Shown here: positions 606-37,646 of the stretch, one piece after another
How the letters are laid out: the number at the start of each line of letters is the position of its first letter
Position numbering within the stretch: position 1 is the stretch's first letter
Translations under genes and position numbers: made by a program
Origin: a virus
Strand: one strand, 5' to 3'
Virus record (IMG/VR): IMGVR_UViG_3300035698_011755
Span: 1-37,873 of that record
DNA length: 37,873 bases
Notes under the pieces: model-generated
Database searches by the model: none
What the model saw: the letters and a program-made list of their open reading frames with translations, nothing else
What the model was told of the DNA's origin: nothing

Positions 606-1622
606 TTATTCTTTGTCTAGTATTCTGATTTTCCTGTGGCCTGACTCGGTGAACCTCTTAATCAGCTCATCGTTGTCCTTGTCCACGATTCCTTTGATGT
701 TGTCGGTGAACGACTTCATCCCTGTCTGAAAGTTCTTCAGTGAACCCTCATCCTTTCGATAGTCCTTCGCACTTGTGCTAAGGAACTGTTCCTTGAACGC
801 ATCAAGCTCCGTCTGAAGCTCGGTGTTGTTCGTCCAGTCCATCAACTTCACATGGTCAATCATGTTCTTGATCTTGTTGATCGATGACTGGTGTACCCCG
901 GTAGTCTTACCCTTACCCATCTGCTCGAGCACATCAGAGCAGCATGTGCCTACCTCCTTGCGGATGGCTTGCATACACTCACCGAAGAACGTGCTGATGC
1001 TACCCTGTACCTCTTGGTATTCTTCTGCGATAGCTTCGTTACGTGCCAGTGTGGATACATTGCTCGCATCCAGTTGTTCAACCAGCTTTTCACTGAGCTG
1101 AAACGAGTGGGTGTGAACGATGAACTTGAACTGTGCTGCAAGCTCAGCCCGTGTCGGATACTCCTTCTCTATGCGAGCGACCAACACATCAGGGTCGACG
1201 TCAAGATCCCATGCCATGTCCCACCACATTGACTTGGAATCCCTGAAGATACTATCGTAGCTGGCCAGAAATATATCCTTACTCGGGATAAACAGGCCGT
1301 CCTTGATAGCGGTCAGTGCAGTCCTCGCCAATGCGAGCTTGGTGTTAGGCATGAAGTTGTAAACATCCATGAACGGGAAGGTGTTCTTCCGTATCAGTGC
1401 ATTCACCCTCGACTCTGCCAATCCGAACGGCTCCAGATACTTAGGGTCGCACAACTTGCGGTGACCCAGGGATAGCTGTCGCTTTATCTTCTCGGTTGAA
1501 TCTAACCCGATGTCCTCTGCCCTGAGCTTCTTGTTCAGCCGGGGATAGCGAACGGAGGTCTTGATTAACACACCAGATCTGAATATCTCTGCGAAGAGAT
1601 CATTGAATATGGTTTTCTTCAT
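606..1622 (-). CDS. DUF3150-like protein
   Basis: 338 residues from ATG at 1622; the frame stays open to 1712, but the internal start fits better because the upstream gene only ends at 1600. Near the N-terminus it reads SVRYPRLNKKL, then GLGHRKLCDPKYLEPF-type text (SLGHRKLCDPKYLEPF), like the 'lysine-rich arm, conserved Leu-Cys-Asp, then long helices' arrangement of DUF3150. The rest is predicted helical and charged, with no catalytic motif. DUF3150 genes often sit beside MoxR-type AAA+ and CobT/VWA genes in phages and bacteria. The DUF1257 and DUF2997 genes directly downstream support that this is the same kind of locus. A plain hypothetical helical protein is the alternative. Confidence 0.55.
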   Translation of the reverse strand: MKKTIFNDLFAEIFRSGVLIKTSVRYPRLNKKLRAEDIGLDSTEKIKRQLSLGHRKLCDPKYLEPFGLAESRVNALIRKNTFPFMDVYNFMPNTKLALARTALTAIKDGLFIPSKDIFLASYDSIFRDSKSMWWDMAWDLDVDPDVLVARIEKEYPTRAELAAQFKFIVHTHSFQLSEKLVEQLDASNVSTLARNEAIAEEYQEVQGSISTFFGECMQAIRKEVGTCCSDVLEQMGKGKTTGVHQSSINKIKNMIDHVKLMDWTNNTELQTELDAFKEQFLSTSAKDYRKDEGSLKNFQTGMKSFTDNIKGIVDKDNDELIKRFTESGHRKIRILDKE

Positions 1623-2022
1623 TGTTATTGCTGTTGTTGTGATCATCGTCAGTGATGATCTCAAAGTCATAGTCTTCTCCTGCTGATGCAACACCGCTCT
1701 TGATGGCGTCATCTATCTGCTCTTCCAACACGCTCACCATCTCTTCTGGCATGTTACGATACATCTCCTTCATCTCTGCTGCCTTGTCCACGCAGAACCT
1801 GTTGTAGTGCATCGCAATGAACATGGACAGTGGCTTATCCACTGCCTTGATAGACATGATGATCGCTGCCTTCTGTGCGACGTCGTTCTTCTGGCAGTAG
1901 ATGAGGGTGATTGCATCACGAACGAAGTCATGGTTCTTGTCAGTCACCCAGTCCAGTCCCTTCAGGGATAGTTCAACGTCTTGTTGGACGGCATCTCTTA
2001 TGTGATGTAGTACGCTTTTCAT
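1600..2022 (-). CDS. Hypothetical acidic protein, Asn-rich tail
   Basis: 140 residues if started at ATG 2022 (MKSVLHHIRDAV); the frame stays open upstream to 2082. I do not recognise a family. It is mostly helical by composition, with an acidic C-terminus (DYDFEIITDDD) followed by a short Asn-rich run. It overlaps the gene before it by about 50 bases and the DUF3150-like gene after it by about 20, as in tightly packed phage operons. The Asn-rich end comes from AAC/AAT repeats and may be a recent slippage product. Confidence 0.6.
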   Translation of the reverse strand: MKSVLHHIRDAVQQDVELSLKGLDWVTDKNHDFVRDAITLIYCQKNDVAQKAAIIMSIKAVDKPLSMFIAMHYNRFCVDKAAEMKEMYRNMPEEMVSVLEEQIDDAIKSGVASAGEDYDFEIITDDDHNNSNNNEENHIQ

Positions 2023-9390: not shown

Positions 9391-9915
9391 CTATTCCGTG
9401 TATTGGACTTGCAGTTGATGAACCTCCCTTTCGAGGAGCCTGATCCGTTCGATCTGCTTTGTCATACACATTTCAAGTTTACTGATGCGAGAGGCTTCCT
9501 GCTTTGGGATCTTATTATTCTGTTCAACTTCGATCGTTTCTACGTCCGGTAATTTGTGGACAGGAACGGCTTGAGCTGCCTTGGCGGCCTCCTCATTCTT
9601 TTTCCTGCGTCTGAGCTGTGTGATGCGGGTGAGGCGTCCTGATCGGACTAATACGCGGCCCATGTCTGGTTCGGTAATGTAAAAGGTCGAGTAAAGCCAC
9701 CGATAGGTAGTCCCTGCCTTTTTGGTCACTTCGATCTTAGCGATGAAGCCGAGTTGTTCCATGGCCCTGAATATAGGCGACGATGCTACGCCGTCTGATT
9801 TTGAGGCTTTACCAATCTTTATGGCAAAGAGGTCTTCCGGGTGGATGACGGCTTGATTCGTGTGGTTAATCAGCAGTTGCCTGATCTGTTCCTGGGTCTT
9901 GTATTTCTTGTTCAT
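9391..9915 (-). CDS. Putative winged-helix protein with C-terminal coiled coil
   Basis: 174 residues. The N-terminal part (EQIRQLLINHTNQAVIHPEDL, then SSPIFRAMEQLGFIAKIEV and TTYRWLY) has the helix-helix-wing pattern of a small DNA-binding domain. A basic linker follows (RITQLRRRKKNEEAAKAA). Residues about 140 to 172 form a clear coiled coil (EMCMTKQIERIRLLEREVHQ), likely for dimerisation. Last gene of the leftward replication transcript. A regulator or a replication accessory factor is possible. Confidence 0.6.
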   Translation of the reverse strand: MNKKYKTQEQIRQLLINHTNQAVIHPEDLFAIKIGKASKSDGVASSPIFRAMEQLGFIAKIEVTKKAGTTYRWLYSTFYITEPDMGRVLVRSGRLTRITQLRRRKKNEEAAKAAQAVPVHKLPDVETIEVEQNNKIPKQEASRISKLEMCMTKQIERIRLLEREVHQLQVQYTE

Positions 9916-10408
9916 TATTGGCCTTGTTTAACGGGTTCTCTGGGTTATCGGCAGCAAAGTGCTGTTTCTGCCGTTGAAGTATGGTAGCGAGCATTTGCTC
10001 TGCTTCCCGGATAAGCTCCTCATCCTTGGGATGTTGTGAGATCAGTTCAGCTACGCGTTCCGTAGCGAGAGTACCCCACTCACGTGGATCCTCTGACTTC
10101 TGCATGGCGGTGAGAATGTTTGTCTGGTAAAGGGAGATTTCACCCTTCTTCTCAAACTCTCTCATGTAGTCAGCCCTGCCCTTCCGCTCCTTGTTGCGTT
10201 CCAAGCGTTGCTGTTTGGGAGGGAGCTTGCCAAAGCATACGTCGCACACCCACTTGGTAGGGGGCATGTTGGCTCTCTTTTGCTCCGGACTACGCTTGAT
10301 CGATACCAGGTGCAGCTCTGTCTCCAGACGCTTCTGGTCGCAGTCGTGTGTTTCACAGGGGACGAGGGGATCTTCCTCATCGGGCATTAGTTTTGGTTTA
10401 TCGCTCAT
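9866..10408 (-). CDS. Zinc-binding hypothetical protein, 180 aa
   Basis: Two cysteine pairs, CETHDC near residue 18 and CDVCFG near residue 55, are spaced like a treble-clef or zinc-ribbon site. The rest is charged helix with a Gln/Asn-rich end. It overlaps the downstream winged-helix gene by 50 bases and starts three bases after the upstream stop. No specific family recognised. Confidence 0.6.
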   Translation of the reverse strand: MSDKPKLMPDEEDPLVPCETHDCDQKRLETELHLVSIKRSPEQKRANMPPTKWVCDVCFGKLPPKQQRLERNKERKGRADYMREFEKKGEISLYQTNILTAMQKSEDPREWGTLATERVAELISQHPKDEELIREAEQMLATILQRQKQHFAADNPENPLNKANNEQEIQDPGTDQATAD

Positions 10409-10411
10409 AAT

Positions 10412-10933
10412 TTAAAAGGGAATGAATTGATCGGTAAATTTTGTGGTCAGCACTTCTGATAATTCGCTCTGCGTGGGAACCGGGTATGATCCATCCGAGT
10501 GCGGTCGTCCCCTCCTCCTCCAGGATGCCTCTGTCAGAAAGAAGTATCTGCCTTCGTGTTCGAAATACTCCTGCGGGAGTCCCTGCGTGGGGCCACAGGT
10601 AATTCTATTGATGGCCCCATCTGCGTCTGGATGCCAGCCCCCTACGGCCCTTCGTATCTGGTTGAGCGGGGATAAGGCGTTGCTGGGCTGGTCGTTGCTT
10701 GGAACTCCCCGATCGGCCCATGACCCTTCATAGCCGGGTGCATTGACATGGTAGAGGGCATCGTCACCGAAGCGGGCCTCTTGCAAAAGCTGTTGTTGCA
10801 ACATCGAGGCAGCGGCCGGGCCGAATACTTTTCTGACCTCATCGGCCAGATCATTCATAACGGCCTTCTCGTCCTTCTTCTCAATAGGACCGGACACTTC
10901 GACAAACTGATGCTGTGGTCTTTTAACCCTCAT
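10412..10933 (-). CDS. Hypothetical protein, 173 aa
   Basis: The frame is open to 10960, but the ATG at 10933 (MRVKRPQHQFVEVSG) is chosen. AGAAGG lies six bases before it, and this ATG overlaps the TGA of the tiny upstream frame (ATGA junction). The N-terminal half has a helical segment with Ala-Gln-rich text (FGPAAASMLQQQLLQEA); the C-terminal half is Gly/Pro-rich with aromatic residues (YFEHEGRYFFLTEASW). Function unknown. Confidence 0.6.
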   Translation of the reverse strand: MRVKRPQHQFVEVSGPIEKKDEKAVMNDLADEVRKVFGPAAASMLQQQLLQEARFGDDALYHVNAPGYEGSWADRGVPSNDQPSNALSPLNQIRRAVGGWHPDADGAINRITCGPTQGLPQEYFEHEGRYFFLTEASWRRRGRPHSDGSYPVPTQSELSEVLTTKFTDQFIPF

Positions 10934-11035
10934 TTCCATCCTTCTTTTGCACGGAGCCATTCATAGTTTTTAAAGGCTGAGGGTTTGTTCTCTTTTAGCA
11001 ATCAGGGTCAGGCCGACAAGTATGATGACTCTCAT
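10930..11035 (-). pseudogene. Tiny membrane-peptide gene with one extra A
   Basis: ATG 11035 overlaps the methyltransferase stop (ATGA). The frame reads MRVIILVGLTLIAK and then departs into a 21-residue end with TAA at 10970-10972. Dropping one A from the AAAA run gives MRVIILVGLTLIAKENKPSA and on to YEWLRAKEGWK, stopping at TGA 10930-10932, which overlaps the next ATG. The composite meshes with both neighbours and has an exact codon count. It would be a 34-residue membrane-anchored peptide. Sequence error, decay and +1 recoding all remain open. Confidence 0.45.
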
Positions 11036-13601: not shown

Positions 13602-14951
13602 TTAACTCCGGTCTACTTCCTCCAGCGAATTGCTGGGGACTTCTTGGTGTTCTCCTGCGTAGTTGTCGAACCGAGCCAGATGCTCCGTCCATGTTAAAAA
13701 TATCTCCCCTGTCTTTCCATCCCGCTGCTTGGCAACGTCACAAAGTCTTTTGCAGTTGTTTTCAGTTTTAGACAGGAGTAGCACAATATCTGCGTCCTGT
13801 TCTATTGAGCCCGATTCTCTAATATCCGATAACCTTGGCTTGCGGCCAGTGGCTGTAAGTTCCCGGTTCAGTTGGGATAGAACAATCACTGGCAGATTGA
13901 GTTCCTTAGCCATCGCCTTCATGTTCCGTGATAACCCGGCAACGACCTGTTCACGGATCTTGACAGACTCAATTGAATCAGCGAGTTGAAGGTAGTCCAC
14001 GATGATAAGCCCCAGGTTCTTTTCTCGGGCTGCTATGTGGCGGGAGGTAAGCCTGATATCGGTTGAGTTTATGTCGGATCGTTCCTCAACCCACATCGAT
14101 CCAACATCGATTTCCTCACGGGCTTTTTCGACATCGGCATTCTGCCGCTTATTGGTTAATTTATCAAACCAGCGATCACGCGAAACCCTTGCTCACGTGA
14201 ATGCCATGCGTAAGGACAGAGCATTGGATGACATTTCAATCGAGAAGAACAATACTACTATGGGTTCCCTGCCGGGTTTCGGTAAAATATTAGCCTCTGC
14301 TATCTTCAGGGCCAAGGATGTCTTGCCTACGCTTGGACGGGCTGCAATGACAGTGACTTCCTGTGGCTTAAATCCCATTGTCATTTTATCCAAGTCAATG
14401 AGGCCCGATGTGATTCCCATCAGATTACCACCCTTCTCTCTGAGTTCACGAAGTTCTTCCATAGCCGGTCCCATGATCTCATTCATTTTCTTCAGCGTTC
14501 TCCCCTTGGGCATTGCCAGCGTCATCATACGGGCATTCATATCACCGAGGATACCCGAGGATGAGTTCTCGGGGTCTTCGCACTTTAACTCCGCCTCTTT
14601 GCATATCTGCCGTATCTGGGCGATGGCATGGGCTTCTGTGAGTATTCCAAGCCACTCATCCATCCGGTGAGTCATCGCCATGTCAAAGGTCGTGAATATC
14701 TTGTTGATCCCGGCGTAACCTCCCACTTCATCCAACACCCCACGCTTGCTAAGGGTGTTGGTGATTACAAGTGAATCTACAAAGCCGGTCTTCTCGTAGG
14801 TGTCGATAATCACGTTCCACAGTGTCCGGTTAGATTCGTCTGTAAACATCGCTTCTGTTACACGGCTGTCCACACACTTCTGGATGGCTTCGTTCTTGTC
14901 ATCCAGCATACAGGTCGAAAGAATTGCTATTTCAACTTCAATATTTATCAC
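13602..14951 (-). CDS. dnaB: DnaB-type replicative helicase, interrupted by in-frame TGA
   Basis: GTG start at 14951, preceded by GGAGGAGG and overlapping the replication-protein stop (GTGA). Residues 1-100 match the DnaB N-terminal domain. Walker A is ARPSVGKTS (204-212) and SIEM follows. Codon 253 is TGA (14193-14195). The same frame then continues ARVSRDRW..., through Walker B (LIIVDYLQL), SQLNREL and the hallmark SDIRESGSIEQDADIVLLL to the stop at 13602. The full 449-codon frame has normal DnaB length. A 252-residue stop product would lack Walker B and be inactive. Unwinds the replication fork and likely recruits a primase. The interruption could be error, mutation, or readthrough. Confidence 0.85.
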
Positions 14952-15883
14952 CAGTTTTCCTCCTCCTTCTGGTAGAGTTCTCGTATCTCATTAAAAATTG
15001 ATGCACACGTTGCCCAACTGTTCACTACGGCATTACGACCAATCTCCTCGGAATCCTTGAGCATTGCCACATATCGCTCCCACCCAGGTATCGGCTTGTA
15101 GCGATCGTAAACCTTCAGATGCTTGTTGTTGTCAGTCATCTCGGTCTGGTCTGCGTCTTCCCATCCACAAGCATTAACAAATGTCGATGCAATCTTGATA
15201 TGTTTTATATCCATTTCGACCCATGCAGGTATTTTCTTCTTCAGGATATTAACCTTTGATATAATTTCATCGGCCTGTTTCTCATAACCCATCTTCACCC
15301 AAGTCTCCAAAGCTCCCCGCTTTCCTTCCTTCCTTGGATAAGCTTCGTAGAATTTATTGAAGCCCGGATAATCGGGGTATTTCGATTGCTTTTTAACACG
15401 AACACTCTTCCCCTTTGAGGGGGATAAAGGGGGTGTATTTAAGTTCTTCTCATTCTTATCATTCTTCTCATTCTTGTTAGGGTCTGGTCTGTGGTTTTTC
15501 TGTGGTTTTTCTGTGGTAAGGTCTGTGGGCGAGTCTGTGGTCTGGTCTGTGGTCTGGTTTCCTTGATATTGTTTATAGTTAGTTATTGATATTAAAGAAC
15601 TTACGTTTGTTTTTCTGTGGTCTATTCGTTCGTCGTCGTTTAGTTCAGCAAGAAATTTTCTTACTTTATCTCTGCTCCATCGCCATCTTGGGGCTAATCT
15701 TCGTTCACTCCATCCAACTTCTCCTCGTTTAACTTTCACCCTAATACCTCTTACGCGAATGTATCCATCAGTATGATTTGCAAGACCGATTAGGTCAGCC
15801 CAAGCTTGTCCACGGGTAAATTTTTCAGATAACCACAAGTTGGTATCTTGAAGAATTCGATGGAATTTCCAATAGCCTTCCAT
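14948..15883 (-). CDS. Replication initiator / helicase-loader-like protein
   Basis: 311 residues. The N-terminal 100 form a winged-helix-type domain: WKFHRILQDTNLW, an aromatic helix with WADLIGLANH, VKRGEVGWSERRLA, and a recognition-helix-like SRDKVRKFLAEL. This is like the N-terminal part of phage O/DnaD-type proteins. A Thr/Pro/Asn linker follows (about 110 to 160). The C-terminal part (GFNKFYEAYPRKEGKRGA, then WVKMGYEKQADEI) is the motif of phage DnaD/helicase-loader tails. It sits directly before dnaB, the usual order for an initiator plus helicase. Likely binds the phage origin and loads DnaB. Confidence 0.75.
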   Translation of the reverse strand: MEGYWKFHRILQDTNLWLSEKFTRGQAWADLIGLANHTDGYIRVRGIRVKVKRGEVGWSERRLAPRWRWSRDKVRKFLAELNDDERIDHRKTNVSSLISITNYKQYQGNQTTDQTTDSPTDLTTEKPQKNHRPDPNKNEKNDKNEKNLNTPPLSPSKGKSVRVKKQSKYPDYPGFNKFYEAYPRKEGKRGALETWVKMGYEKQADEIISKVNILKKKIPAWVEMDIKHIKIASTFVNACGWEDADQTEMTDNNKHLKVYDRYKPIPGWERYVAMLKDSEEIGRNAVVNSWATCASIFNEIRELYQKEEENW

Positions 15884-22010: not shown

Positions 22011-22253
22011 ATGGAAGCGAACAAATTAACGCTTAACCTAAGCGACGAAACAATTGCAAGTGTCCTCGCCGTTCACAAACCTGGCGATAAGTTGAATCTC
22101 GAAGTCGAGGTGCAGTACGATGAGGCAAACGATGAGATAGCGAATTTGACTGTCTTGTCCGTGAGCCCGACTGGTTCAAAGTCGGAAGAGGAAAAACCAG
22201 CCACCCCGGATACACCGGTAGGCGTAGTTATGTCTGAGGGAGGATCTTATTAA
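22011..22253 (+). CDS. Small acidic phage protein, 80 aa
   Basis: MEANKLTLNLSDETIASVLA..., acidic and mostly a beta-helix-like head (GDKLNLEVEVQYDEANDEIA) followed by a Ser/Pro tail. It lies between terminase and head genes, a usual spot for minor head or assembly factors. The stop overlaps the next ATG. No family recognised. Confidence 0.55.
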   Translation: MEANKLTLNLSDETIASVLAVHKPGDKLNLEVEVQYDEANDEIANLTVLSVSPTGSKSEEEKPATPDTPVGVVMSEGGSY

Positions 22254-22666
22254 TGCCACCAAATACCACATTTAATGTTAAAGCGAGTCAGTGGAATCGA
22301 GGTGGAAGAGAACAGCTCATCACGGCTGAGATGGGGAACGAACCCTTCTTGTTCGATTCGTTTGGAAGCCTTCTTGTTTCTCAGGAAAATGCTTCCATAA
22401 CAGCTGCGGCCTTCGCTCACGCTGTAAAGATCAATCCAGCGGGTGGAGTCTTACCGATCGGCACAACCCCCACACTCGTTGAGTCTGTTCTTATCAAGGC
22501 GAAGCATGGCAATACGGGCAACGTCTTCATCGGTGATTCTGGTGGACAGAATATGCCCTTACCCGTTTCAATCGGTGCCCCTCCAGGGAAGAAGATCGAC
22601 CTGTCAGACATTTATTACAGAGTTGATACGGCCGGTGATGGTGTCGTCATTCTAACTCTGGGATAA
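22253..22666 (+). CDS. Putative small head or fibre protein, 137 aa
   Basis: Gly, Ala and beta-rich (VESVLIKAKHGNTGNVFIGDS, then SDIYYRVDTAGDGVVILTLG), like a small virion decoration or stabilisation protein. GGAGG lies ten bases upstream of the ATG, which overlaps the previous stop (TAATG). Position between terminase and the FN3/LamG gene favours a structural role, but this is inference. Confidence 0.55.
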   Translation: MPPNTTFNVKASQWNRGGREQLITAEMGNEPFLFDSFGSLLVSQENASITAAAFAHAVKINPAGGVLPIGTTPTLVESVLIKAKHGNTGNVFIGDSGGQNMPLPVSIGAPPGKKIDLSDIYYRVDTAGDGVVILTLG

Positions 22667-22667
22667 A

Positions 22668-23714
22668 ATGCCATTAGGATTTGACACTTTAGAATCGGTC
22701 AACCCCTCCTGTCTTCGAGAAGTTGGGGATAAGAACAGTCGCTTTGGATTGGAAGCCGGAGGCGGAGGCGTAGGCCCTCCAACTCCTCCTAATGCCCCAA
22801 CCGGATTAACCGCAACGACTGTATCTGACGTTCGGATTGACCTTACGTGGGTTGATAATTCAACAGACGAAACGGGTTTTTCAATAGAACGAGCTCCTGC
22901 TGCAATAGGCCCGTGGGCCGAGATTGATACGGTAGGTGCGGGGATAACGGCATATCAGAGTATCGGACTCACCGCTTCCACTCAGTATTTCTATCGAGTC
23001 AGGGCATTTAATGGCCCTCTTTACTCAACTTACTCTAATATAGCAGACGACACGACAGATGCACCTTCCCCTCCCGATCTAGCCAATCTACTTGCTTGGT
23101 ATAAGGCTGAAACAAACTGGACACCTAATGGCGGCGACCTTGCTACGTGGGGAGACAACAAAAACAGTAATGACATTACTCAAGGAACCGGAACCAAACA
23201 GCCATTGATTATATCGCCAGGGTGCAATGGACTAGATACGGCTCAATTTGATGGTGTCAGCGAGTTCTTGACCGGAGCGTTTGTTAGCACACAGCCGACA
23301 ACGGTTTTAATGTTGTGTAAGCCAATCACATGGAACTCAGGTGATAAGTTTTTTGACGGCGGCGGTGGAACCAACAAGAACTATATTTCAGATACTACAG
23401 GAACACCGACAGTTCGTGCGTATGCCGGTTCATTCCTTTCCCTTGCGGCAACAGGTCCAACCATCGGAGCTTGGGGCGTAGTGACCGCCATTTTCAACGG
23501 TGCATCCGGGCTTGTTCAATTCAATAAGACCGCTGCGTCAACTGGTGCAATCGGAGCCAACGACGGCGATGGTTTCACAATGGCCGCACGACAAGATGGT
23601 TCTTTCAATACGAAGAACATTGAGGTATGTGAGGCACTTATTTATTCGGCGGCTCTTGATGCGACAATTAGAGGACTGGCACAGGACTATTTACTTGGGG
23701 TGGGAGGTCTTTAA
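22668..23714 (+). CDS. Fibronectin type III plus LamG-like surface protein
   Basis: 348 residues. After a Gly-rich start, residues about 42-130 form a fibronectin type III domain (APTGLTATTVSDVRIDLTW, GFSIERA, YFYRVRAFNG). Residues about 138-348 resemble a concanavalin/LamG-type lectin sandwich (LLAWYKAETNWT, FDGVSEFLTG, GAWGVVTAIFNG, then IEVCEALIYSAALD). Such domains bind sugars or decorate capsids and tails. It lies between terminase and portal, so a capsid-surface or accessory adhesin role is plausible. Confidence 0.7.
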   Translation: MPLGFDTLESVNPSCLREVGDKNSRFGLEAGGGGVGPPTPPNAPTGLTATTVSDVRIDLTWVDNSTDETGFSIERAPAAIGPWAEIDTVGAGITAYQSIGLTASTQYFYRVRAFNGPLYSTYSNIADDTTDAPSPPDLANLLAWYKAETNWTPNGGDLATWGDNKNSNDITQGTGTKQPLIISPGCNGLDTAQFDGVSEFLTGAFVSTQPTTVLMLCKPITWNSGDKFFDGGGGTNKNYISDTTGTPTVRAYAGSFLSLAATGPTIGAWGVVTAIFNGASGLVQFNKTAASTGAIGANDGDGFTMAARQDGSFNTKNIEVCEALIYSAALDATIRGLAQDYLLGVGGL

Positions 23715-23715
23715 T

Positions 23716-24042
23716 ATGCGCGTAAAATACCGAAGGTTTTCAACAGAGGAAAAAGCAGATGCGTTTATCGCGCGACTTAATACCTTATACGGTTATCCAA
23801 AACCGGAGACACACACCTTTACTATCGCTGAAGCTATTGTTCATCCACAAACCGGCCATGCTATTGTGGTATTAAAACCTGTCTTTGATCATAACAAGGG
23901 ACGCTATTCTAATATGGCATTACGGCTAACAAAAGAAGAAAAGGCAAACTCCACTGAGATGGTTGACCCTGATTTAGTGGCAGAAGGATTTGAAACGTCC
24001 CGAAGTTCCCGAAGACAAGGACATCAAGATACCGAAACCTGA
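23716..24042 (+). CDS. Small hypothetical protein, 108 aa
   Basis: ATG 23716, with GGAGGT seven bases upstream, is preferred over the open frame that extends into the previous gene. MRVKYRRFSTEEKADAFIARL, then VVLKPVFDHN, then a Lys/Ser-rich tail. Located in the head block. No family recognised. Confidence 0.6.
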   Translation: MRVKYRRFSTEEKADAFIARLNTLYGYPKPETHTFTIAEAIVHPQTGHAIVVLKPVFDHNKGRYSNMALRLTKEEKANSTEMVDPDLVAEGFETSRSSRRQGHQDTET

Positions 24043-24058
24043 CTACCTGAAGTGATGT

Positions 24059-24433
24059 ATGACCACGAACGAGGCACTCATAAAATCCCAGTTTATAGGG
24101 ATACGTGAACGCTGGAACAACGTTCGTGCTAAACAACTATGTCGCAAGCTTGGCTGGACAATGGGAGAATTTCAGCGGTTTCTACTGGCCACTAAGGCAG
24201 AGTTTAATTCGTATTTGAGGAACAAGTTCCCAGGGGCCGCCTGCAAACAAATGGAGGACTGGGAGAACTACTTGCACCATAAAACTCTAGGAGAAACGCC
24301 AAAAGTGTTGCCAGATCCGGTTGAGCCGTTCATTGCTATTTTTGAGTTTGTTAATAAAATAGCCGATGAGCAGTCAGATCATGCAACCGAGGCAAGACAA
24401 TTACTTGAACCATTTAAGAGGGACGAGGCATGA
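24059..24433 (+). CDS. Hypothetical phage protein before portal, 124 aa
   Basis: Helical and basic: KSQFIGIRERWNNVRAKQLCR, WTMGEFQRFLLATK, and an acidic helix at the end (NKIADEQSDHATEARQLLE). The stop overlaps the portal ATG (ATGA). Size, HTH-like N-terminus and position would suit a packaging accessory, but I cannot assign it. Confidence 0.5.
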   Translation: MTTNEALIKSQFIGIRERWNNVRAKQLCRKLGWTMGEFQRFLLATKAEFNSYLRNKFPGAACKQMEDWENYLHHKTLGETPKVLPDPVEPFIAIFEFVNKIADEQSDHATEARQLLEPFKRDEA

Positions 24434-26832
24434 TTGATTATAAGGTTTTAGACTCGTATGGAACCAACCGGGAGAGGATCGAGGCGATCTTCACTATGCA
24501 GAGTGCAACCACGCTGTCGCCGGCCGGAGAACGATTGTTCAATGTCGACAACCCTGAGCTGAATGCCGACAACCCCGATCTGGATCCGAAGCCGAACAAG
24601 AAGAAGGTAGCAGCAGCACAGAAGGCATACGCAGAAAAGTTGTGGGCGACAAAAGAGACTTGGAAAAAGAAACTCTGTTCCCGCAACGAGGAGGGTCGAA
24701 CCTTTACTTTTAAGAATTACAAATACTGGCTGGCCTGTGATATGGCCATGGACGGTTCACCTTTGATCCCCGAGAATTTACCCCTTAACCTGTACGCTCA
24801 GGGAAAGATAGATTTTGATTCCTGTTCTACTGAACTCGAGAAGCTTGAAGCGATGTCCAACCGGAAGTTCCTCAAGTGGGAGGGAGAAGGCGAAGATAAA
24901 AAGATCAAGGAACTCGACGTCCCCCGGTTATACGAGGTCTGCTTTAACATTGTCAGACCGTATGTTACACGACGTGTAGCCGCCCAACTCGCACGTATCC
25001 TCAACCGCGATCCTCACCTTCCCTTCAGAAGTCGTGATCGATCCATGATAGGAAAGCTCCGGGCTGATGTCATGGGACAACGCTCAGAGATGATATGGGA
25101 TCAGTTTGGCTATGGTCACCAGATGGATCAGTTCTTACGTGAAACATTCATGTACGCCCACGTTGTAGCCTTTGTTGATTCTGCATGGGAGAAGGAAAGC
25201 ACGGTCGTTCTTGATAAGCTGGGAGATCAGAAGGCCGTCATCAGCAAAGAGGGACCGGTCTTTACCAATCCTCACCCATCCCGGGTGTTCTGGGATCGGG
25301 CTTACCCGGTATCTTCCCTGAACTTTGATTCGGGTTGTAAGTGGTGCGGGTATTGGGACGTTGTTCGATATAGTCAGGTCTGTTCTCCGGACTTCTTCAA
25401 CATCGATCAGGTCAAATACACCGACAGCACATATAACGCCTTTCGTCTTTTCCCAAACTACTACACCCTTTACTACTACGCCAACGACGCGGAATGTATC
25501 CTCAAGGCACCAGCGGCGGGTGCGGATGATTACTTTATCAAGAATGATCGGACAGCTAACATCGGCTATTACTCGCAGGACAAGAAGGATGCCGGTGTAA
25601 TCATCGCCAACTACTACGAGAAGGTGATTCCAAGCCAGTGTGGCCTTGGCACCTACCCTCACCCGGTATGGTTGAAGCTTATCGTTCTCAATGACGAGAC
25701 TGTGATCCATGGAGAGTTCCTTCCCTCCCGTCCGGCCATGGTTATGTATTACAACGAGAATGACTCAAAGCTCATGTCTCCGAGCATGGTTCATGACATG
25801 CTTCCGTATAACGATCAGATTCAAATGCTTCTGTCCCAGATGGTGTACTTCATGAAGGTTCAGAGCATCCTCCTTTATGCAATCAACTCCGATATGGTTG
25901 ACCCCGAGATGCGTCAGACGATCAGAGCACACCTCGATGGGAACAAATACTATTCAAAGGCTCTCTCGTTTGATGCGAGCTTTACAGACTTCGAGGAGCT
26001 ATACGGCAAGAACTTCTCCTCAACGAAAGCGATCGAGATTATTACTACGAAGCTTGAGGGACAGATCAATGATCTTTTGCAGGCCATATCGACCATCTCT
26101 TTCTACCTCGAAAAAAACCAGATGATGTCCTCGCAGGAGTTGGGGCAGGTTGTTGGATCCGGGGAAACATCAGCAACGGAGATCGCTGAAACCTCATCCA
26201 CCACGGCTACCCTCTACAACTATATCTCGAGAGGCCCGAATGAATTTCTTAATGCCATGAAGGTGATTCTCTACGAGTCACTTATGGCAAAGGGCAGCAC
26301 GGATATCCGCGTTCCTATCACCAGCTTCTACCCCGACGATGTCATTGAAAAAGCAGGCTTTACCTCAGAAGGAACGGCACAGGATGGAATGACCATCATT
26401 GGCTCTAAAGAAAGCCTCGTGCATGATTACGTGTTTGATTCCTCTGACATGAATGAGAAGCCGCGTAGCATCGAGTCTGCCAAGGTCTTGATGCAGCTCG
26501 TAACCATGGTGCTTGGAAACGAACAAGTAGCAATGGCCGTCGGGCAGGACCAACTATCCGCGATGATAACAGAAACTTTCCGCATGGCCGACAGTGACTT
26601 CATTCTCAAGATGGATGAATCCACTCAAGATCCACAAGTGGCAACCAATCAACAGGTTCAACAAACGATACAGCAATTCCAAGAAGCATTGATGCAGCAG
26701 GCCGAGGGCTTAAAACTTTCCGCAGATAAGATCGCTGCAATTGAAGAAGGGCTTAACGATGTAGCTGAAAGCGTTAAAGAACTTTATCAACCGCAAGGTC
26801 AACCTCCAGAAGCAGCAACAGCAGCAATATAA
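24430..26832 (+). CDS. Portal protein
   Basis: 800 residues. It has the large portal profile: long N-terminal half with aromatic strands, a long central helix with SQELGQVVGSGETSATEIAE (clip-to-stem region), and a coiled Gln-rich end (QQTIQQFQEALMQQAEG). It forms the dodecameric ring through which DNA enters; TerL docks on it. It precedes the scaffold and capsid genes as usual. Length is in the range of podovirus-size portals. Called by context and motif, not by a search. Confidence 0.75.
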   Translation: MIDYKVLDSYGTNRERIEAIFTMQSATTLSPAGERLFNVDNPELNADNPDLDPKPNKKKVAAAQKAYAEKLWATKETWKKKLCSRNEEGRTFTFKNYKYWLACDMAMDGSPLIPENLPLNLYAQGKIDFDSCSTELEKLEAMSNRKFLKWEGEGEDKKIKELDVPRLYEVCFNIVRPYVTRRVAAQLARILNRDPHLPFRSRDRSMIGKLRADVMGQRSEMIWDQFGYGHQMDQFLRETFMYAHVVAFVDSAWEKESTVVLDKLGDQKAVISKEGPVFTNPHPSRVFWDRAYPVSSLNFDSGCKWCGYWDVVRYSQVCSPDFFNIDQVKYTDSTYNAFRLFPNYYTLYYYANDAECILKAPAAGADDYFIKNDRTANIGYYSQDKKDAGVIIANYYEKVIPSQCGLGTYPHPVWLKLIVLNDETVIHGEFLPSRPAMVMYYNENDSKLMSPSMVHDMLPYNDQIQMLLSQMVYFMKVQSILLYAINSDMVDPEMRQTIRAHLDGNKYYSKALSFDASFTDFEELYGKNFSSTKAIEIITTKLEGQINDLLQAISTISFYLEKNQMMSSQELGQVVGSGETSATEIAETSSTTATLYNYISRGPNEFLNAMKVILYESLMAKGSTDIRVPITSFYPDDVIEKAGFTSEGTAQDGMTIIGSKESLVHDYVFDSSDMNEKPRSIESAKVLMQLVTMVLGNEQVAMAVGQDQLSAMITETFRMADSDFILKMDESTQDPQVATNQQVQQTIQQFQEALMQQAEGLKLSADKIAAIEEGLNDVAESVKELYQPQGQPPEAATAAI

Positions 26833-26835
26833 ACG

Positions 26836-28437
26836 ATGTCAAAACAGCCAGTAATACCCGAACCAGAAACCGATAAAACAGACTTCGCATGGATGGAAGG
26901 TCCACTTGAAGTTCCAGAAGATGTAGCCAAGTCTCTTAATCCGCAGGAGGACGTTGACTTAGAATCGCTCCGCTATCAGGGCAGCGACATGGGTGCGACC
27001 ATTGAGCTACTCAACGCAGAGCCACCCAAGCCAGGTGATCCTCCCGATCCGCTCGCACCGGAAGAAACACCGACACCTGATGATGGGCCTCCTGATCCGC
27101 TCAAACCGGATGTGCCAGCCAAACCCCCGGCCAAGCCCGTAGAAGCTGCTGCTCCGGCAACCCCCGTAATTCCCGTAGAAGCTGCTCCGACCCCCGCTAC
27201 GCCCGTAGTCACCAAGGGCATTGACCTTCCGGATTTGGGTGAGGATGTCATTCCTAAGGATGTTCCCTCTATCCCCGCGATCAAAGCTGATGAGCTGCCG
27301 GTCATTCAGATCAGTAAGGCGGACGAAGCTTTCATAGGCAGGATTGATAAGGCATCCAAGAGTTCACTCGATTTCTTTCACTTTGCCGAACAGCTCGAAC
27401 CTGAAAAATACAAGGGAGCCCTCGAACGGCACATTGCTTTCCTCAAAGACCATTCGCAATATGTAACCAAGGCCAGAAGCGAAGATCCGGATATCAACCT
27501 TGAACAGGACGATGATTACCAGAAATGGGTGCGGGCCAATAAGCCTGTAATCATGGATCAGTACGAGATTCAGGATATGCGGGGACGCATCAGCGAGGAG
27601 AAGGCCTTACGCCGCTTCCGTACAGAGCAGGCCAAACAATTTGAACCGGTTCGACAATACATGGAGCGGGCCAAGACTGAACCAATTCTTCGTCAGGAAG
27701 TCGCAGCCTTCGGAGAGCAGTTGATGTCATCTCTTGCTTCGCCAACAAAAGTTGGTGATGTCGACAACACGACGGCTGAAGCCAATGAGTTTGTTAATAC
27801 GTTCATTGAAGCAGGCGGTGGGGTTAAGGGAGAAACACAGCTCCGGGAGAAATACTCCGATGATGAAACCGAACTGTTTAAGCAGGTCACTAAGAACAGC
27901 GTATCGCTGGCAAGGGAGTTTGTAAGGGTCAATGACTTCGACACCGCCCTGGACACCAGAAACCCTGTCCATGATATGTTGTTCAACAACATCAAGAAGT
28001 GGGGTAAGGATATGGCCACCAACCCCGCATACGAAAATCTTCGCAAGCGTGATGACGGAACCACGTTCCTGCCATTAGAGCAATACGGTGATCTTCAGGC
28101 CCGTAACCCGACTGAAGCGGCCAAGCATTTCACTTTCAGCCGTGAACAAATACTTCGGTTAATTGCAACTGAGGGTAAATTTACGCTGAATCAAGGGCTT
28201 GTTGCCAGAAAAAGTGCCATAACTCGGTATCTTGAACAGCATGGAATGACGAAAGAAGACATCGGAAAGCTCGCATCGGGTTCAAATGCACAACCGAAGG
28301 CACCACCTGCGGAGATAGAAAACTCTCCCAGATCCCCGCGTTCCTCTCCGGTCGCACCGGCTTCTACCACTCCGGCAACGGGTTCTGGTACGTTTATGGA
28401 TGACGTAATGGGGCCGATCGGTCAGAAGCCAGCGTAA
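26836..28437 (+). CDS. Putative scaffold / internal head protein
   Basis: 533 residues. Residues about 60-125 are Pro/Ala-rich (PPDPLAPEETPTPDDGPP), a flexible segment. The rest is charged helix (RRFRTEQAKQFEPVRQYMERA), typical of scaffolding. The C-terminus has SPRSSPVAPASTTPATG, also disordered. It starts three bases after portal and lies directly before the capsid gene, the common scaffold position. No protease motif was seen. A non-scaffold internal virion protein is the alternative. Confidence 0.6.
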   Translation: MSKQPVIPEPETDKTDFAWMEGPLEVPEDVAKSLNPQEDVDLESLRYQGSDMGATIELLNAEPPKPGDPPDPLAPEETPTPDDGPPDPLKPDVPAKPPAKPVEAAAPATPVIPVEAAPTPATPVVTKGIDLPDLGEDVIPKDVPSIPAIKADELPVIQISKADEAFIGRIDKASKSSLDFFHFAEQLEPEKYKGALERHIAFLKDHSQYVTKARSEDPDINLEQDDDYQKWVRANKPVIMDQYEIQDMRGRISEEKALRRFRTEQAKQFEPVRQYMERAKTEPILRQEVAAFGEQLMSSLASPTKVGDVDNTTAEANEFVNTFIEAGGGVKGETQLREKYSDDETELFKQVTKNSVSLAREFVRVNDFDTALDTRNPVHDMLFNNIKKWGKDMATNPAYENLRKRDDGTTFLPLEQYGDLQARNPTEAAKHFTFSREQILRLIATEGKFTLNQGLVARKSAITRYLEQHGMTKEDIGKLASGSNAQPKAPPAEIENSPRSPRSSPVAPASTTPATGSGTFMDDVMGPIGQKPA

Positions 28438-28553
28438 GTGCATTTGCACTACACTTCTGTTTTTGCAGAAATATTGCCTGATTATTAAGTTTATTTTGCT
28501 TTCTCAAAAAACGAGGGGGAAGGTTGAGGTCTAACTCAAAAGAAGGTAATTAA
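28438..28553 (+). promoter_or_regulatory. Leader region of the capsid gene
   Basis: The 116-base gap holds a GTGCA/TGCAC palindrome just after the scaffold stop, a TTCTG/CAGAA hairpin, AT-rich TTATTAAGTTTATTTTG, and an AGAAGG ribosome site before ATG 28554. A dedicated capsid promoter or mRNA processing site is plausible; no consensus promoter was certain. Confidence 0.35.
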
Positions 28554-30254
28554 ATGGGTGTAGCAGACCAAATCCTGAATCAATGTGGGCCTCGCGTCAT
28601 TAACGTATCGAACGTGTGTGACGGTTCTTTAACGAAGCTCGACATGCAGGGACTTACACCGGCAACGCTTGAGAGTATGAAGAACACGGCTTGGATGGAG
28701 TATTTCTTATACACACAGGCCGTCAAAGCACGTATGACCGGAGTCAGAGAAAACTCCCTCTACGATCTCATCCTTAGCCGGACGGCCCCGATCAAACTCG
28801 GGAAGGAAACAGTAAACAATAAGTCTTACTTCCTCCCCTACATTCTCAGAAACCAAGAGGACTATATTAACGCCAATGCGTTTAATATTGTCAGTGGTGG
28901 CCCCAATGCCAATGCCGGAACAACGGTTGACGGTGTTGTCTATCCCCTCTCCTCGTGGGATGTCGTTGTTCAAAACAGCCCTTCGGCGTTTGCAAGTCCG
29001 CTTGTTCACATCGAACGCTACTTTGTCCTCGGTGCTGATTGTGTTGTCCTCAATCTTTCCGCTGCTGGTGCAGTCCAGGAACCTTACATGAAGGTCATTA
29101 ACGCCGTTTATATCACGACTGCAGGTGGCGTTGAACAAGCTCGTGTCACCCTCGCAGCCAACGTCACCGACGCGGCTACCGGGTGGGGTGGAATGACCGC
29201 CGCAGAACGCTTACTGTTCCAGCCCACCGCGGGTGTTGTGCAGGTCGGCGTGAACAATGTATCGGATTATGAGAGCTGGTGTGAAATGCAGCCGGTCGAT
29301 TTATCGAACCGCCTCATCCACTTCTGGTGTCAGACTTCCCGGCATGTGTTCTGTTACGATGATGAAACCAAGAAGTATCTCGCATACATCATGGCGGGGA
29401 ATGTTAATCCATACCTCGACCTGTATAAAGAGCTGCCTCTCACTGAACAGAACCGGAAGGCTTACGCCAACTGGGAACGTCAACAGTGTATCTCGTTCTT
29501 CTACGGCCAGCAGATCGACGAACATCAGACGGCTGAAGATTATCGCAATCTTCCCAAGGTCTATGATCCTCGACATGGTATCTTCCTGGAATACAAGGCA
29601 AACGCCTTGGGGGTGAAAACCCTCCTCAACGAATGTAACCGCGTGATCGACTATGCGGGTGCTCCTCTGGATCTGAACGTCCTCGAAAACCAGCTGTATC
29701 AAATCAAGCGTCACCGTGAGGTCGACGGGGGTACAGTTACGGAAATCGATGCATGGACAAACCGTAACACGGCGGCCACGATCGACAGTCTGATGATGGG
29801 CTACTATAAGGCACGTAACCGCATGAATTATGAGCAAGACTGGAAGCCCCAGACAATCTCGGTTCAGGACAAAGTGTTGTGGAACTACCGTTCATACGAG
29901 TTCCGGGATGCTCAGGTTACTCTCAATGTGATTGTTGAGCCTTTCTTCGATGACCACAAGTTGCACTTCCCGGCGTCCATGGCGTCACGCGGCAATATGC
30001 TGTTGATTCCGGATTGGTCAGACATCAAACGTGGTGTCGCTGGTGCAGCTTCGCGGACAAGCCATACTCCTGATCTCGAAACGGATCCGGACTTCGCTTG
30101 CATCATCAAGGCGAACATCAAGCATTACGAGATGCAGAGTTTCGTTTGGACAGTCCTCCTGGAAGATCCTTCTCGCCACTTGTGGATTGAGAATTTCTCG
30201 GACGAATGTCCGACCTACGCCTTTACTCTCTGCGAGCCTACGCAGAGTTCATAA
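28554..30254 (+). CDS. Major capsid protein (putative)
   Basis: 566 residues with AGAAGG before the ATG. It is beta-rich, with few cysteines and long conserved-looking segments (SLYDLILSRTAPIKLGKETV, then FFDDHKLHFPASMASRGNML and HLWIENFSDECP). It lies after the putative scaffold and is followed by a strong terminator, as for the most expressed late gene. The fold family (HK97-type) is assumed, not proven. Confidence 0.7.
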   Translation: MGVADQILNQCGPRVINVSNVCDGSLTKLDMQGLTPATLESMKNTAWMEYFLYTQAVKARMTGVRENSLYDLILSRTAPIKLGKETVNNKSYFLPYILRNQEDYINANAFNIVSGGPNANAGTTVDGVVYPLSSWDVVVQNSPSAFASPLVHIERYFVLGADCVVLNLSAAGAVQEPYMKVINAVYITTAGGVEQARVTLAANVTDAATGWGGMTAAERLLFQPTAGVVQVGVNNVSDYESWCEMQPVDLSNRLIHFWCQTSRHVFCYDDETKKYLAYIMAGNVNPYLDLYKELPLTEQNRKAYANWERQQCISFFYGQQIDEHQTAEDYRNLPKVYDPRHGIFLEYKANALGVKTLLNECNRVIDYAGAPLDLNVLENQLYQIKRHREVDGGTVTEIDAWTNRNTAATIDSLMMGYYKARNRMNYEQDWKPQTISVQDKVLWNYRSYEFRDAQVTLNVIVEPFFDDHKLHFPASMASRGNMLLIPDWSDIKRGVAGAASRTSHTPDLETDPDFACIIKANIKHYEMQSFVWTVLLEDPSRHLWIENFSDECPTYAFTLCEPTQSS

Positions 30255-30288
30255 AGTATTTTGGCCTCGGTTATTGCTGTTAATCGGG

Positions 30289-30328
30289 AAGGGCTGTCAG
30301 GACGTAAAAATCCTGTCAGCCCTTTTTT
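30289..30328 (+). terminator. Strong rho-independent terminator after the capsid gene
   Basis: GGGCTGTCAGGA and TCCTGTCAGCCC form a perfect 12-base stem, extendable by A-T pairs, around an eight-base loop and followed by six T. It ends the head transcript 35 bases past the capsid stop. Confidence 0.93.
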
Positions 30329-30331
30329 CTT

Positions 30332-30365
30332 TTGACACCTAATTTTTATATGGCAGTTTTACGAT
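30332..30365 (+). promoter_or_regulatory. Putative promoter with ACCTAAT element
   Basis: Directly after the capsid terminator, TTGACACCTAATTTTTATATGG precedes ATG 30366, so a new promoter is needed here. The ACCTAAT (30337-30343) recurs at 7351, 21996 and 37283. TTGACA is a good -35 but no -10 lies at 17 bases; a phage-specific promoter is likely. Confidence 0.5.
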
Positions 30366-30794
30366 ATGATCCTCACACGGAACCAGTGGATGGACGAGAT
30401 TCACGATTATTCTCCCAATATGGATTGGGGGAAGATCGATCTACCGGACGCCACCTACCAGACGGTCACACGCGAGTTCGTTGAGAATAAATATAATCCG
30501 TACTGGGAGAAGGTACTGAAGATACTGCGGATTAAATACTCAAAGAAGTTTGACTGTAACCGGTTTGCTAAAGGAGCGAGATGGATCGCATCCGTAGTTC
30601 ACTCAAAGAGCGACAGCACGTTGGCCGCGATCGCAATGGCAGAGTTTGAATATAAGCGTGACGTAGATGACCAGTATCATGAGATAAACCTTTGGAGAAC
30701 TGAGAACGGAGTCGAGGCATGGGAGCCTCAAAATCAATCATGGCTAAACCTAACACAAACCGAACGCTTTTCTGGGCGGCGTGCTGCATCATAA
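30366..30794 (+). CDS. Cysteine-peptidase-like protein, lysis module
   Basis: 142 residues without a clear ribosome site. Cys64 in FDCNRFAKGARW, His105 in YHEINLWRTENG and a following WEPQNQ resemble the Cys...His-x-x-Asn...EPQ layout of transglutaminase/papain-like or CHAP-like proteins that phages use as peptidoglycan hydrolases or other peptidases. The position just before two lipoproteins and membrane proteins supports an endolysin role. The last 18 residues overlap the lipoprotein gene. Activity is inferred. Confidence 0.45.
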   Translation: MILTRNQWMDEIHDYSPNMDWGKIDLPDATYQTVTREFVENKYNPYWEKVLKILRIKYSKKFDCNRFAKGARWIASVVHSKSDSTLAAIAMAEFEYKRDVDDQYHEINLWRTENGVEAWEPQNQSWLNLTQTERFSGRRAAS

Positions 30795-30889
30795 TCCTGT
30801 TGGCAGGATGTGTAACCCCACCCGAAGCCACTCTGGACGACCTGTTTCCACCGGAAGACTACAAATACGAGGACTACGACAATGGATGA
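30740..30889 (+). CDS. Small lipoprotein, o-spanin-like
   Basis: 49 residues from ATG 30740 (an upstream in-frame ATG at 30719 gives 56). After a basic start and the hydrophobic stretch LFWAACCIIILLAGC comes a lipobox (LLAGC) with Cys25 as the lipid-bearing residue, then an acidic tail with DLFPPEDYKYEDYDNG. It is embedded in the cysteine-peptidase gene, and the next gene starts inside its stop. This suits an Rz1-like outer-membrane spanin, though it is shorter in Pro than classical Rz1. Confidence 0.65.
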   Translation: MAKPNTNRTLFWAACCIIILLAGCVTPPEATLDDLFPPEDYKYEDYDNG

Positions 30890-31229
30890 CCTACTTAAAC
30901 TGGCAATGAGCTACCTGATAGACCCTGAGTTCTACGCCTTTGTTGGTGCAATGATCGCAGCTCTGGGCAAGATCTGGCACAGCGGGAACAAGGTCACTAC
31001 CATTGAGAAGGTAGCCGAGACACTGGTTGTTACCAATCAGGCACTCATGAAACACCCTCAATATTCAGCAGCCGAAGAAACGGTTAAGGGATTTTTCAAA
31101 GAGGTTCAGACTGAAATGGGCAACCATACAGAAGTCCGTGCCATCATCAAGAAGTATCAAAATCAAGATAAGGCCGATGAGATTATCACAAAGGTAACTC
31201 AGCCGCCTTTCCCACACCACAGAATATGA
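30882..31229 (+). CDS. Membrane-associated protein of the lysis module, 115 aa
   Basis: A short hydrophobic helix at residues 17-29 (FYAFVGAMIAALG) is followed by a soluble helical part (IEKVAETLVVTNQALMK, then ETVKGFFKEVQTEMGNH). It could be a holin-like or inner-membrane spanin-like protein. Its ATG overlaps the lipoprotein stop. The weak single membrane segment leaves the role open. Confidence 0.5.
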   Translation: MDDLLKLAMSYLIDPEFYAFVGAMIAALGKIWHSGNKVTTIEKVAETLVVTNQALMKHPQYSAAEETVKGFFKEVQTEMGNHTEVRAIIKKYQNQDKADEIITKVTQPPFPHHRI

Positions 31230-31342
31230 CCGGCATTAGTGATTACCCGTTTCAGCTTATATCCAAGCGGGGTCAAAAACTTTTCAAACCATCGAAGCTC
31301 CCATTCAAGATCGTCCATCTTATGTTGTTCTATCTCGATATA

Positions 31343-31810
31343 ATGAAACATCGAATCCTATTGGCCTTCCTAACTCTCACCCTGTTCGGGTGCAGCGAAA
31401 CTTTTAAACAGACCGCCGTTCCTCTGGCAAAGATCGGTCTTCGCGTAGCCGTGAGAGGGCTAGTGCTGAGTAACCCTGCGGTTGCTCCATACGTGACCGG
31501 TCTTTCATTGGTTCTCCGACAGACGGATGTATTGTCACCGGCAGGAGTACGGACTGAAGTAAACACCTACATCAACCGTAAGGTGAACGATCCCCTATAC
31601 CGTGAAAGTATGAAGGATCTGGCCGATATGTTACTGGTATTCTATGACGGTGTTTATGAGAAGAACGCAGGAGCATTAGCCGATAATCAGGCGGTTGCTA
31701 TCCTCACACGCTTTGCAGATGTAATTGACATGGCAGTTGATCCGACGATTGCGGCCGCAGGGCCGGACGAGGTTATTCGCTTGGAGATGGTATCTGTATT
31801 AATCGAGTAG
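31343..31810 (+). CDS. Lipoprotein, 155 aa
   Basis: The frame is open from 31226, but ATG 31343 yields a signal peptide (MKHRILLAFLTLTLFGC) with lipobox LFGC and lipidated Cys17. The rest is helical and hydrophilic. Two lipoproteins so near one another in a lysis region is unusual; this one could be a superinfection-exclusion or structural lipoprotein. Confidence 0.65.
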   Translation: MKHRILLAFLTLTLFGCSETFKQTAVPLAKIGLRVAVRGLVLSNPAVAPYVTGLSLVLRQTDVLSPAGVRTEVNTYINRKVNDPLYRESMKDLADMLLVFYDGVYEKNAGALADNQAVAILTRFADVIDMAVDPTIAAAGPDEVIRLEMVSVLIE

Positions 31811-31813
31811 GAC

Positions 31814-31854
31814 GTACCTTAATTTGACTAGAGCAAATGCCAATTATTAGGTAC
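31814..31854. promoter_or_regulatory. GTACCT/AGGTAC inverted repeat
   Basis: GTACCTTAATT (31814-31824) faces AATTATTAGGTAC (31842-31854), giving a stem with a two-base bulge in the 79-base gap before the 31890 gene. No T run follows. It shares the GTACCTT half with the palindrome at 7254. Operator or promoter element. Confidence 0.35.
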
Positions 31855-31889
31855 TCACAAAACTAGAAAACAAACAGAAAGCTGATATA

Positions 31890-32291
31890 ATGGACGCCGA
31901 ACTACAAGCTGTTGTGACCGAACAAACGAAGCTACGCACTTTCGTTGAGGGCAAGTTTGAAACCATTGACGAGAAGTTGGATACGCAGAGCCATGTTACC
32001 GGGCAGCTCAGTGCCGACGTTCAGACTTTGACTATTGGGGTAGAGAAGCTGATTACAAAGTTTGAGGGGCAATACACACCGGGGGAAGCCCCGCAATGTG
32101 TTATTCATGATCAAAAGATCGGTCAGGTTGAGAAAGCGATAGCTGAAGTTATAGAAGAAGTTAAAAAAAAGATCGTGGTCATTGAGAAAATTGACCGGCG
32201 AGTTGGTTTTATCATTACCGTCCCGACTGTCCTTCTTGCTTTCTTCGGTATCCTGAAAGGCGTTCTCCTATATCTCGGAAAAACGGGGTGA
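31890..32291 (+). CDS. Coiled-coil membrane protein, holin/XhlA-like
   Basis: 133 residues. Residues 1-95 are a helical coiled coil (LRTFVEGKFETIDEKL, then IAEVIEEVKKKIVVI). Residues 107-127 form one membrane segment (FIITVPTVLLAFFGILKGVLL). This coiled coil plus C-terminal anchor is the layout of XhlA-type phage lysis proteins. The four-base overlap with the next gene links lysis and the glycan cassette. Confidence 0.6.
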   Translation: MDAELQAVVTEQTKLRTFVEGKFETIDEKLDTQSHVTGQLSADVQTLTIGVEKLITKFEGQYTPGEAPQCVIHDQKIGQVEKAIAEVIEEVKKKIVVIEKIDRRVGFIITVPTVLLAFFGILKGVLLYLGKTG

Positions 32292-33061
32292 GGCTCCACT
32301 TCCACAACACTTGGCATCTGGGGGATTGCTTTCTCCAACTGCATTTCTGTCGTAAGCTCGCAGAGAGAGGGCATGATGTTTTCTTCTATGTGAAAAAGGA
32401 CTACGTTTACGAACTTAACCAATACTGCGGGAGGGTAAACATCCGGCGTATGGATCAGATTCACAAAGAATCGATCAATACATGGCTCGGTCAGAAAGCA
32501 GAGTTCTTCGTAAACAGCCCGAATAAGAAGGATTACGCCCAATGTATGCTCAATGTTTTCGATTACATCGCCACACGGGCACATGTGGACAACCCGATCA
32601 AAACGAAAGATGCCCTTTGGATTGACTGGTCTGAGTATAACGAAGCCTTCCGGATACCGCCATGTGATGTGTTCATTGTAAACTCCCGTGGGCTCAGCGG
32701 TCAGACCACTGCCCAACCGAAGGATTGGGAATCGCTCATTAACAAGCTCTTGGCAGATGGCTACAAGGTGACAACCACGGCTCCGACTGATTGCGACTGT
32801 CCCTGCACAATGAAGATGGGTATGAACATGGTAGAACTCGGAGCTTCAAGTATAGGGGCAAAGATTATAGCCGGGGTACAAACCGCACCCTATCATCCCA
32901 CTGTCAACATCTGGAACAAGAACGCCCTGTTTTTAAATTTCCATCAGGAAACGTGCTTTCAAATGGGCAACACGCAGTGGGTCAGAAACTTAGACCAGAT
33001 CGAAAAGGTTATCCATGCAAATTCTGTTTGGACGTTGAAGGTTATGAACCGCAGGTTTTAA
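32288..33061 (+). CDS. Glycosyltransferase GT9-like
   Basis: 257 residues opening MRLHFHNTWHLGDCFLQLHF, which has the nucleotide-sugar-binding GD and alpha-helix style of heptosyl/ADP-sugar transferases (GT9). TVNIWNKNALFLNFHQETC would supply the second binding lobe. The last ten residues (VWTLKVMNRRF) run in another frame relative to a methyltransferase-like fragment that follows, so the end may be modified by recombination. Substrate unknown; likely adds sugar to a virion or host glycan. Confidence 0.55.
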   Translation: MRLHFHNTWHLGDCFLQLHFCRKLAERGHDVFFYVKKDYVYELNQYCGRVNIRRMDQIHKESINTWLGQKAEFFVNSPNKKDYAQCMLNVFDYIATRAHVDNPIKTKDALWIDWSEYNEAFRIPPCDVFIVNSRGLSGQTTAQPKDWESLINKLLADGYKVTTTAPTDCDCPCTMKMGMNMVELGASSIGAKIIAGVQTAPYHPTVNIWNKNALFLNFHQETCFQMGNTQWVRNLDQIEKVIHANSVWTLKVMNRRF

Positions 33062-33102
33062 GAGGCATTGATTTTAGCAAAGTGGCGTTCGGAGCTTCCT
33101 AA
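33025..33102 (+). pseudogene. FkbM methyltransferase motif fragment
   Basis: In the frame different from the neighbouring gene, LDVEGYEPQVLRGIDFSK is almost a consensus of the conserved C-terminal block of FkbM-family sugar O-methyltransferases. Nothing upstream in that frame looks like the rest of the domain. It ends at TAA 33100-33102. In the GT9 frame the sequence continues open as WRSELPKPVFVPVFGPTW to about 33199. Most likely a recombination remnant of a methyltransferase gene between two glycosyltransferases. Confidence 0.55.
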
Positions 33103-33170
33103 ACCGGTCTTTGTTCCTGTTTTTGGCCCCACTTGGCTACAAAATGATTATGGCCCTGATTGGATACACA

Positions 33171-33980
33171 ATGAAGATTCCAGTAATATTAATTCATAAA
33201 GGCTATAATGAGTTTGTGGGCTATGCTTTGAAGCAGGCTAATAAAAACAATTTTGTGCATCTTATTGGCGATACCAAACCGCCGTTCGATTTAAACCATT
33301 ATGAATTTAATTTAATAACCGACTTCAATGAAGGATGTGATTATTTTAAATCAATTTACGAGCACCTGAATACCACACCGCCACACTTTGAATTGTTCTG
33401 TTACCAGCGGTGGATCGTCCTTCGAAACTTTATGGTGCAGAATAATTTAGGCATCGTATTCTATATCGATTCAGACGTGTTGTTGTTCTCTAATGTAACC
33501 GAAGAATGGGAGAAATATAAACAATATGAGATGACATTATTTTATAGAACAGCAGCCGTTGCATCCTTCATTACTTTAGACGGCATTAATAATTTCTGTG
33601 AGTTGATCTTGGATACCTATTCCAATAAAGATTCATATTATTTTAAAAAAATAGCGGCAGTTTTTAGAGTAAGGCAGGAATGTCATCTTCGAGGTGGTGC
33701 ATGTGACATGGCGTTGTTTGAACTTTACTCCTCCCAGGGGTTGGTTGGTGAAATGATGCAGATAATTAACGACACCACCTACGATCATAATATTCATGTG
33801 GCGCAAGGATATGATTTTATTGATGGCCATAAAAATTTTGTGATCAAAAACGGCGTCCCCTATGTCTACAATCTTAGACTATCAAAGGATATAAAATTTA
33901 ACTCACTTCATTTTCAGGGTAATAAAAAAGCCCTGATGAAATCTGTTTATGAAAGTACACGCCATAACGCCACGATCTAA
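33171..33980 (+). CDS. Glycosyltransferase, nucleotide-sugar-transferase type
   Basis: 269 residues from ATG 33171; the longer open frame to 33111 has no good start. GT-A style: MKIPVILIHKGYNEFV, then HLIGDTKPPF, FELFCYQRWIVL, and FYIDSDVLLFSNV with the DSD metal-binding motif. The gene is markedly more AT-rich than its neighbours (long A/T runs), suggesting recent acquisition. It overlaps the next gene by 32 bases. The sugar is unknown. Confidence 0.75.
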   Translation: MKIPVILIHKGYNEFVGYALKQANKNNFVHLIGDTKPPFDLNHYEFNLITDFNEGCDYFKSIYEHLNTTPPHFELFCYQRWIVLRNFMVQNNLGIVFYIDSDVLLFSNVTEEWEKYKQYEMTLFYRTAAVASFITLDGINNFCELILDTYSNKDSYYFKKIAAVFRVRQECHLRGGACDMALFELYSSQGLVGEMMQIINDTTYDHNIHVAQGYDFIDGHKNFVIKNGVPYVYNLRLSKDIKFNSLHFQGNKKALMKSVYESTRHNATI

Positions 33981-35332: not shown

Positions 35333-35333
35333 T

Positions 35334-37260: not shown

Positions 37261-37282
37261 AGTTGATCTAATAGAAAAAAAC

Positions 37283-37635: not shown

Positions 37636-37646
37636 ACAACCGACAG

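Follow-up and report, generated by a model that had tools for sequence, protein, structure and literature searches.

The question raised by this locus is why a gene with the hallmarks of a replicative DnaB helicase should carry, between the motifs needed for ATP hydrolysis, a single in-frame TGA. The window analysed is the whole stretch of 37,873 nucleotides of the viral record IMGVR_UViG_3300035698_011755. The first-pass annotation offered four meanings for the TGA: a sequence error, a mutation, stop readthrough giving two forms of the protein, or a truly split helicase. The first two fit all the results described below; readthrough gained no positive support, and the results oppose a split helicase. 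We consider the best explanation, with a probability of roughly 0.86, to be a young single-base nonsense change, be it a real (perhaps defective) allele or an error of consensus or assembly, the estimate covering these two undivided. The interrupted dnaB looks like neither a new way of coding nor a split enzyme.

Translation of positions 14951–13600 on the minus strand gives 449 residues and a terminal TAA, with the TGA at 14195–14193 as the sole internal stop; retranslation agreed in every detail checked with the coordinates, the placing of the stop at codon 253 and the 449-codon length recorded at first pass (Table 1). The GTG start is preceded by AGGAGGAGG, with an AGGAGG-type site just upstream, and the length with the TGA read through is normal for the DnaB family (near 449 aa). 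The claim that DnaB hallmarks lie on either side of the TGA was likewise borne out. Residues 1–252, which include Walker A, match both the Pfam DnaB N-terminal family PF00772 (1.3e-11) and the first 68 positions of DnaB_C, PF03796 (2.7e-18), and residues 254–449, which include Walker B, match the remainder of the DnaB_C profile, positions 85–255 (1.9e-43). The read-through protein as a whole matches phrog_19, DnaB-like helicase, over residues 2–437 (2.3e-72), and aligns from residue 3 to 435 with 6bbm, a replicative DnaB of known structure. Membership of the family thus rests on an N-terminal domain followed by DnaB_C, both present, in the right order and parted by the TGA; the uninterrupted frame that belongs to the DnaB-like family is broken here, owing to that codon, and the gene is accordingly classed with interrupted dnaB genes, not with working helicases.

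Table 1. Features of the dnaB locus, with positions numbered along the window.
Feature	Position	Strand	Basis or remark
dnaB-like replicative helicase gene, interrupted once	13602..14951	(-)	449-codon frame, GTG 14951 to TAA 13602
In-frame TGA, codon 253, between Walker A and Walker B	14193..14195	(-)	Translation of the frame
Codons 1-252: N-terminal domain, linker, Walker A (RPSVGKTS)	14196..14951	(-)	Pfam PF00772 and start of PF03796
Codons 254-449: Walker B (LIIVDYLQL), SDIRESGSIEQDAD and KQRDG motifs	13605..14192	(-)	PF03796 positions 85-255
First possible restart after the TGA: ATG 14096, 164 aa	13602..14096	(-)	Judged to be no real gene start
DnaD-like helicase loader gene	14948..15883	(-)	phrog_2514, 9.2e-24; overlaps the dnaB start

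Some local causes for the TGA can be set aside at once. No sequence is inserted or missing at the site, where the alignment with DnaB is gap-free, which rules out an intron or an intein. An antisense ORF on the plus strand (14002–14670) was considered as a reason for the TGA and rejected, having neither a PHROG match nor a coding score. Selenocysteine at codon 253 found no support either, with no Rfam element nearby and no cysteine among the residues found at this column in the tblastn alignments of 80 loci.

A change in the genetic code, in which phage or host would read UGA as sense (code 4 or 25), deserves consideration since phages with recoded TGA are on record, their genomes being dense in in-frame TGA (PMC10746230). 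In this phage, TGA ends 30 of the 56 listed ORFs, about half, and when every stop was read past, no other TGA-ending gene proved to have a long in-frame coding continuation. The continuation past the dnaB TGA, at +37 bits over 196 codons, is the sole case of its kind for TGA; two of the other long continuations lie beyond TAA stops, each with a normal gene starting at an ATG one codon later, and a weaker one, beyond dnaB's own TAA, coincides with the frame of the small gene that comes next. Since nothing comparable lies beyond the other TGAs, TGA is a genuine stop in this phage, as the first-pass annotation had stated of its other genes. The many in-frame TGAs of a recoded genome are absent, and a search of the window, which may be an incomplete record and has many genes of no assigned function, found no tmRNA and no tRNA, suppressor or other. 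Global recoding is ruled out by stop usage together with the coding test past each stop, and UGA as a sense codon in phage or host is, in our judgement, scarcely credible.

Counted over the read-through protein, 42 of the 45 columns conserved at 90% or more in an alignment of 79 distinct homologues are kept, Walker A and Walker B included; 16 of 17 lie before the TGA and 26 of 28 after it. The codon score in the same frame is 0.27 bits per codon before the TGA and 0.19 after, the other two frames being negative, and a run of 196 open codons beyond the TGA arose in none of 5000 base shuffles. The C-terminal half has not drifted, its conserved columns being kept as well as those ahead of the TGA; column counts, codon scores and shuffles together suggest that this half was under selection within one protein until recently.

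Comparison of the codon-253 region with DnaB homologues, one of the checks proposed at first pass, showed the column to be variable among the 79 sequences (E 33, R 9, L 6, Q 6, T 4 and others), which suggests a site tolerant of many residues. That alignment was made from open frames, so the test for stops rests on tblastn alignments of about 95 homologue loci (80 + 15 besides the window's own), in which no stop was found. Alignments of this type can run through stops, as the window's own did, so that a stop in a homologue would have shown.

These results bear on programmed or tolerated readthrough, by which some full-length helicase would be made beside the truncated form. Of the bacterial stops UGA is the leakiest, and the conservation of both halves and a site that accepts many residues would suit such a mechanism. 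Set against this are the homologues themselves, distant ones at about 95 loci, none of which has a stop at codon 253, and the RNA, which over 60–100 bases at or after the TGA folds within the range of shuffled sequence (z -0.22 to -1.44), with no stem-loop beyond that of the shuffles. No Rfam family or element was found, nor a suppressor tRNA, and it is hard to see what a hexameric replicative helicase made in small amounts would be for. We regard readthrough as quite unlikely.

Alternatively, residues 1–252 and a restarted C-terminal piece might together form one active enzyme. Two small PHROG families suggest that in some viruses pieces of DnaB are annotated as proteins in their own right: phrog_11530 (184 aa, function unknown) corresponds to a stand-alone C-terminal piece beginning near the position of ATG 14096, and phrog_23150 (217 aa) stops a little past Walker A. 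However, a single codon parts the two halves here, and the next ATG, GTG or TTG after the TGA is ATG 14096, 33 codons downstream, preceded by AGGAAATCGATGTTGGATCG with merely a weak GGA close by; no second start with initiation signals lies just past the stop. A Shine-Dalgarno-like tetramer occurs within 16 bases of 14 of the 41 gene starts examined, which may bear on the host, and with such sites scarce in these genes the weak one at ATG 14096 would not by itself be a bar to initiation. A C-terminal restart product would be without Walker A. The 79 homologues are all single-frame, and when relatives were examined for two separately started proteins, the eight taken from among the better-annotated phage matches to the C-terminal half all proved to be single full-length genes of 422–461 aa. 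A split enzyme is therefore very unlikely. Literature searches gave no title on point for DnaB with readthrough, nor for a split DnaB or split helicase, and a leaky UGA setting the amount of full-length helicase, or a naturally split DnaB, taken together, is unlikely.

The nonsense change preferred here is argued for by the lone TGA, the normal length, the preservation of sequence on both sides and the use of TGA as a normal stop elsewhere. One base change would have placed a stop inside a phage dnaB that was functional until recently and is otherwise intact. Were the phage that was sampled to carry the nonsense allele in reality, the product would be a truncated helicase without Walker B, which should be inactive; the same sequence could also arise by an error in the consensus of this single assembled contig. 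We infer that the change is recent and the truncated product inactive. Two considerations count against a nonsense change: a phage that loses its replicative helicase should pay a high price, and the remaining genome is densely filled with open genes. Given the DnaD-like loader upstream, that price might conceivably be lowered by borrowing the helicase of the host. If, as is likely, a simple nonsense change is all there is here, the case concerns annotation only, and the gene should be recorded as an interrupted dnaB; were the stop kept and full-length protein made, it would represent an unusual translational control of a replicative helicase.

Searches of viral contigs, genomes and phage records for a close relative, using five proteins (DnaB, terminase, the 800-aa protein described below, the RecT-like protein and the loader) and the DNA as queries, found none. 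Relatives of the loader reach 43% identity, and tblastn of their flanks gave no DnaB match; the best DnaB relative is at only about 35%, so that none is near enough to document a sense codon for this lineage. As judged by sequence comparison, the phage is an orphan within the collections searched. Its terminase, RecT-like, RusA-like and DnaB genes are recognisable and it is otherwise very divergent. The structural-looking half (22253–37822, plus strand) is mostly without PHROG match, with weak matches to tail or virion proteins at 22668–23714. In this half, genes for proteins of 800 and 533 aa (24430–26832 and 26836–28437, plus strand) lie in one frame with a TAA, one codon and an ATG between them; they have no PHROG or Pfam match and are likely two adjacent genes, or possibly one interrupted gene. 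The same arrangement occurs on the minus strand at 9866–10408 and 10412–10960, where the two proteins are mutually unrelated and without a family match. A DUF3150 protein (606–1712, minus strand; 1.5e-12) is unusual beside the unmatched genes at that end.

It is useful to set this gene beside known systems. With phages in which TGA is reassigned (codes 4 and 25) it shares the presence of TGA inside a conserved phage gene; in contrast to these, the in-frame TGA is here a single one, TGA is commonly a stop, and the record is without a suppressor tRNA. With DnaB-like helicases such as Ban of phage P1 and DnaB of E. coli it shares the domain order, Walker A and Walker B, the SDLRESGSIEQDAD and K-x-R-x-G motifs, a length near 449 aa and an adjoining helicase loader; it is distinguished from known members by one in-frame TGA at codon 253, at an identity of about 30%.
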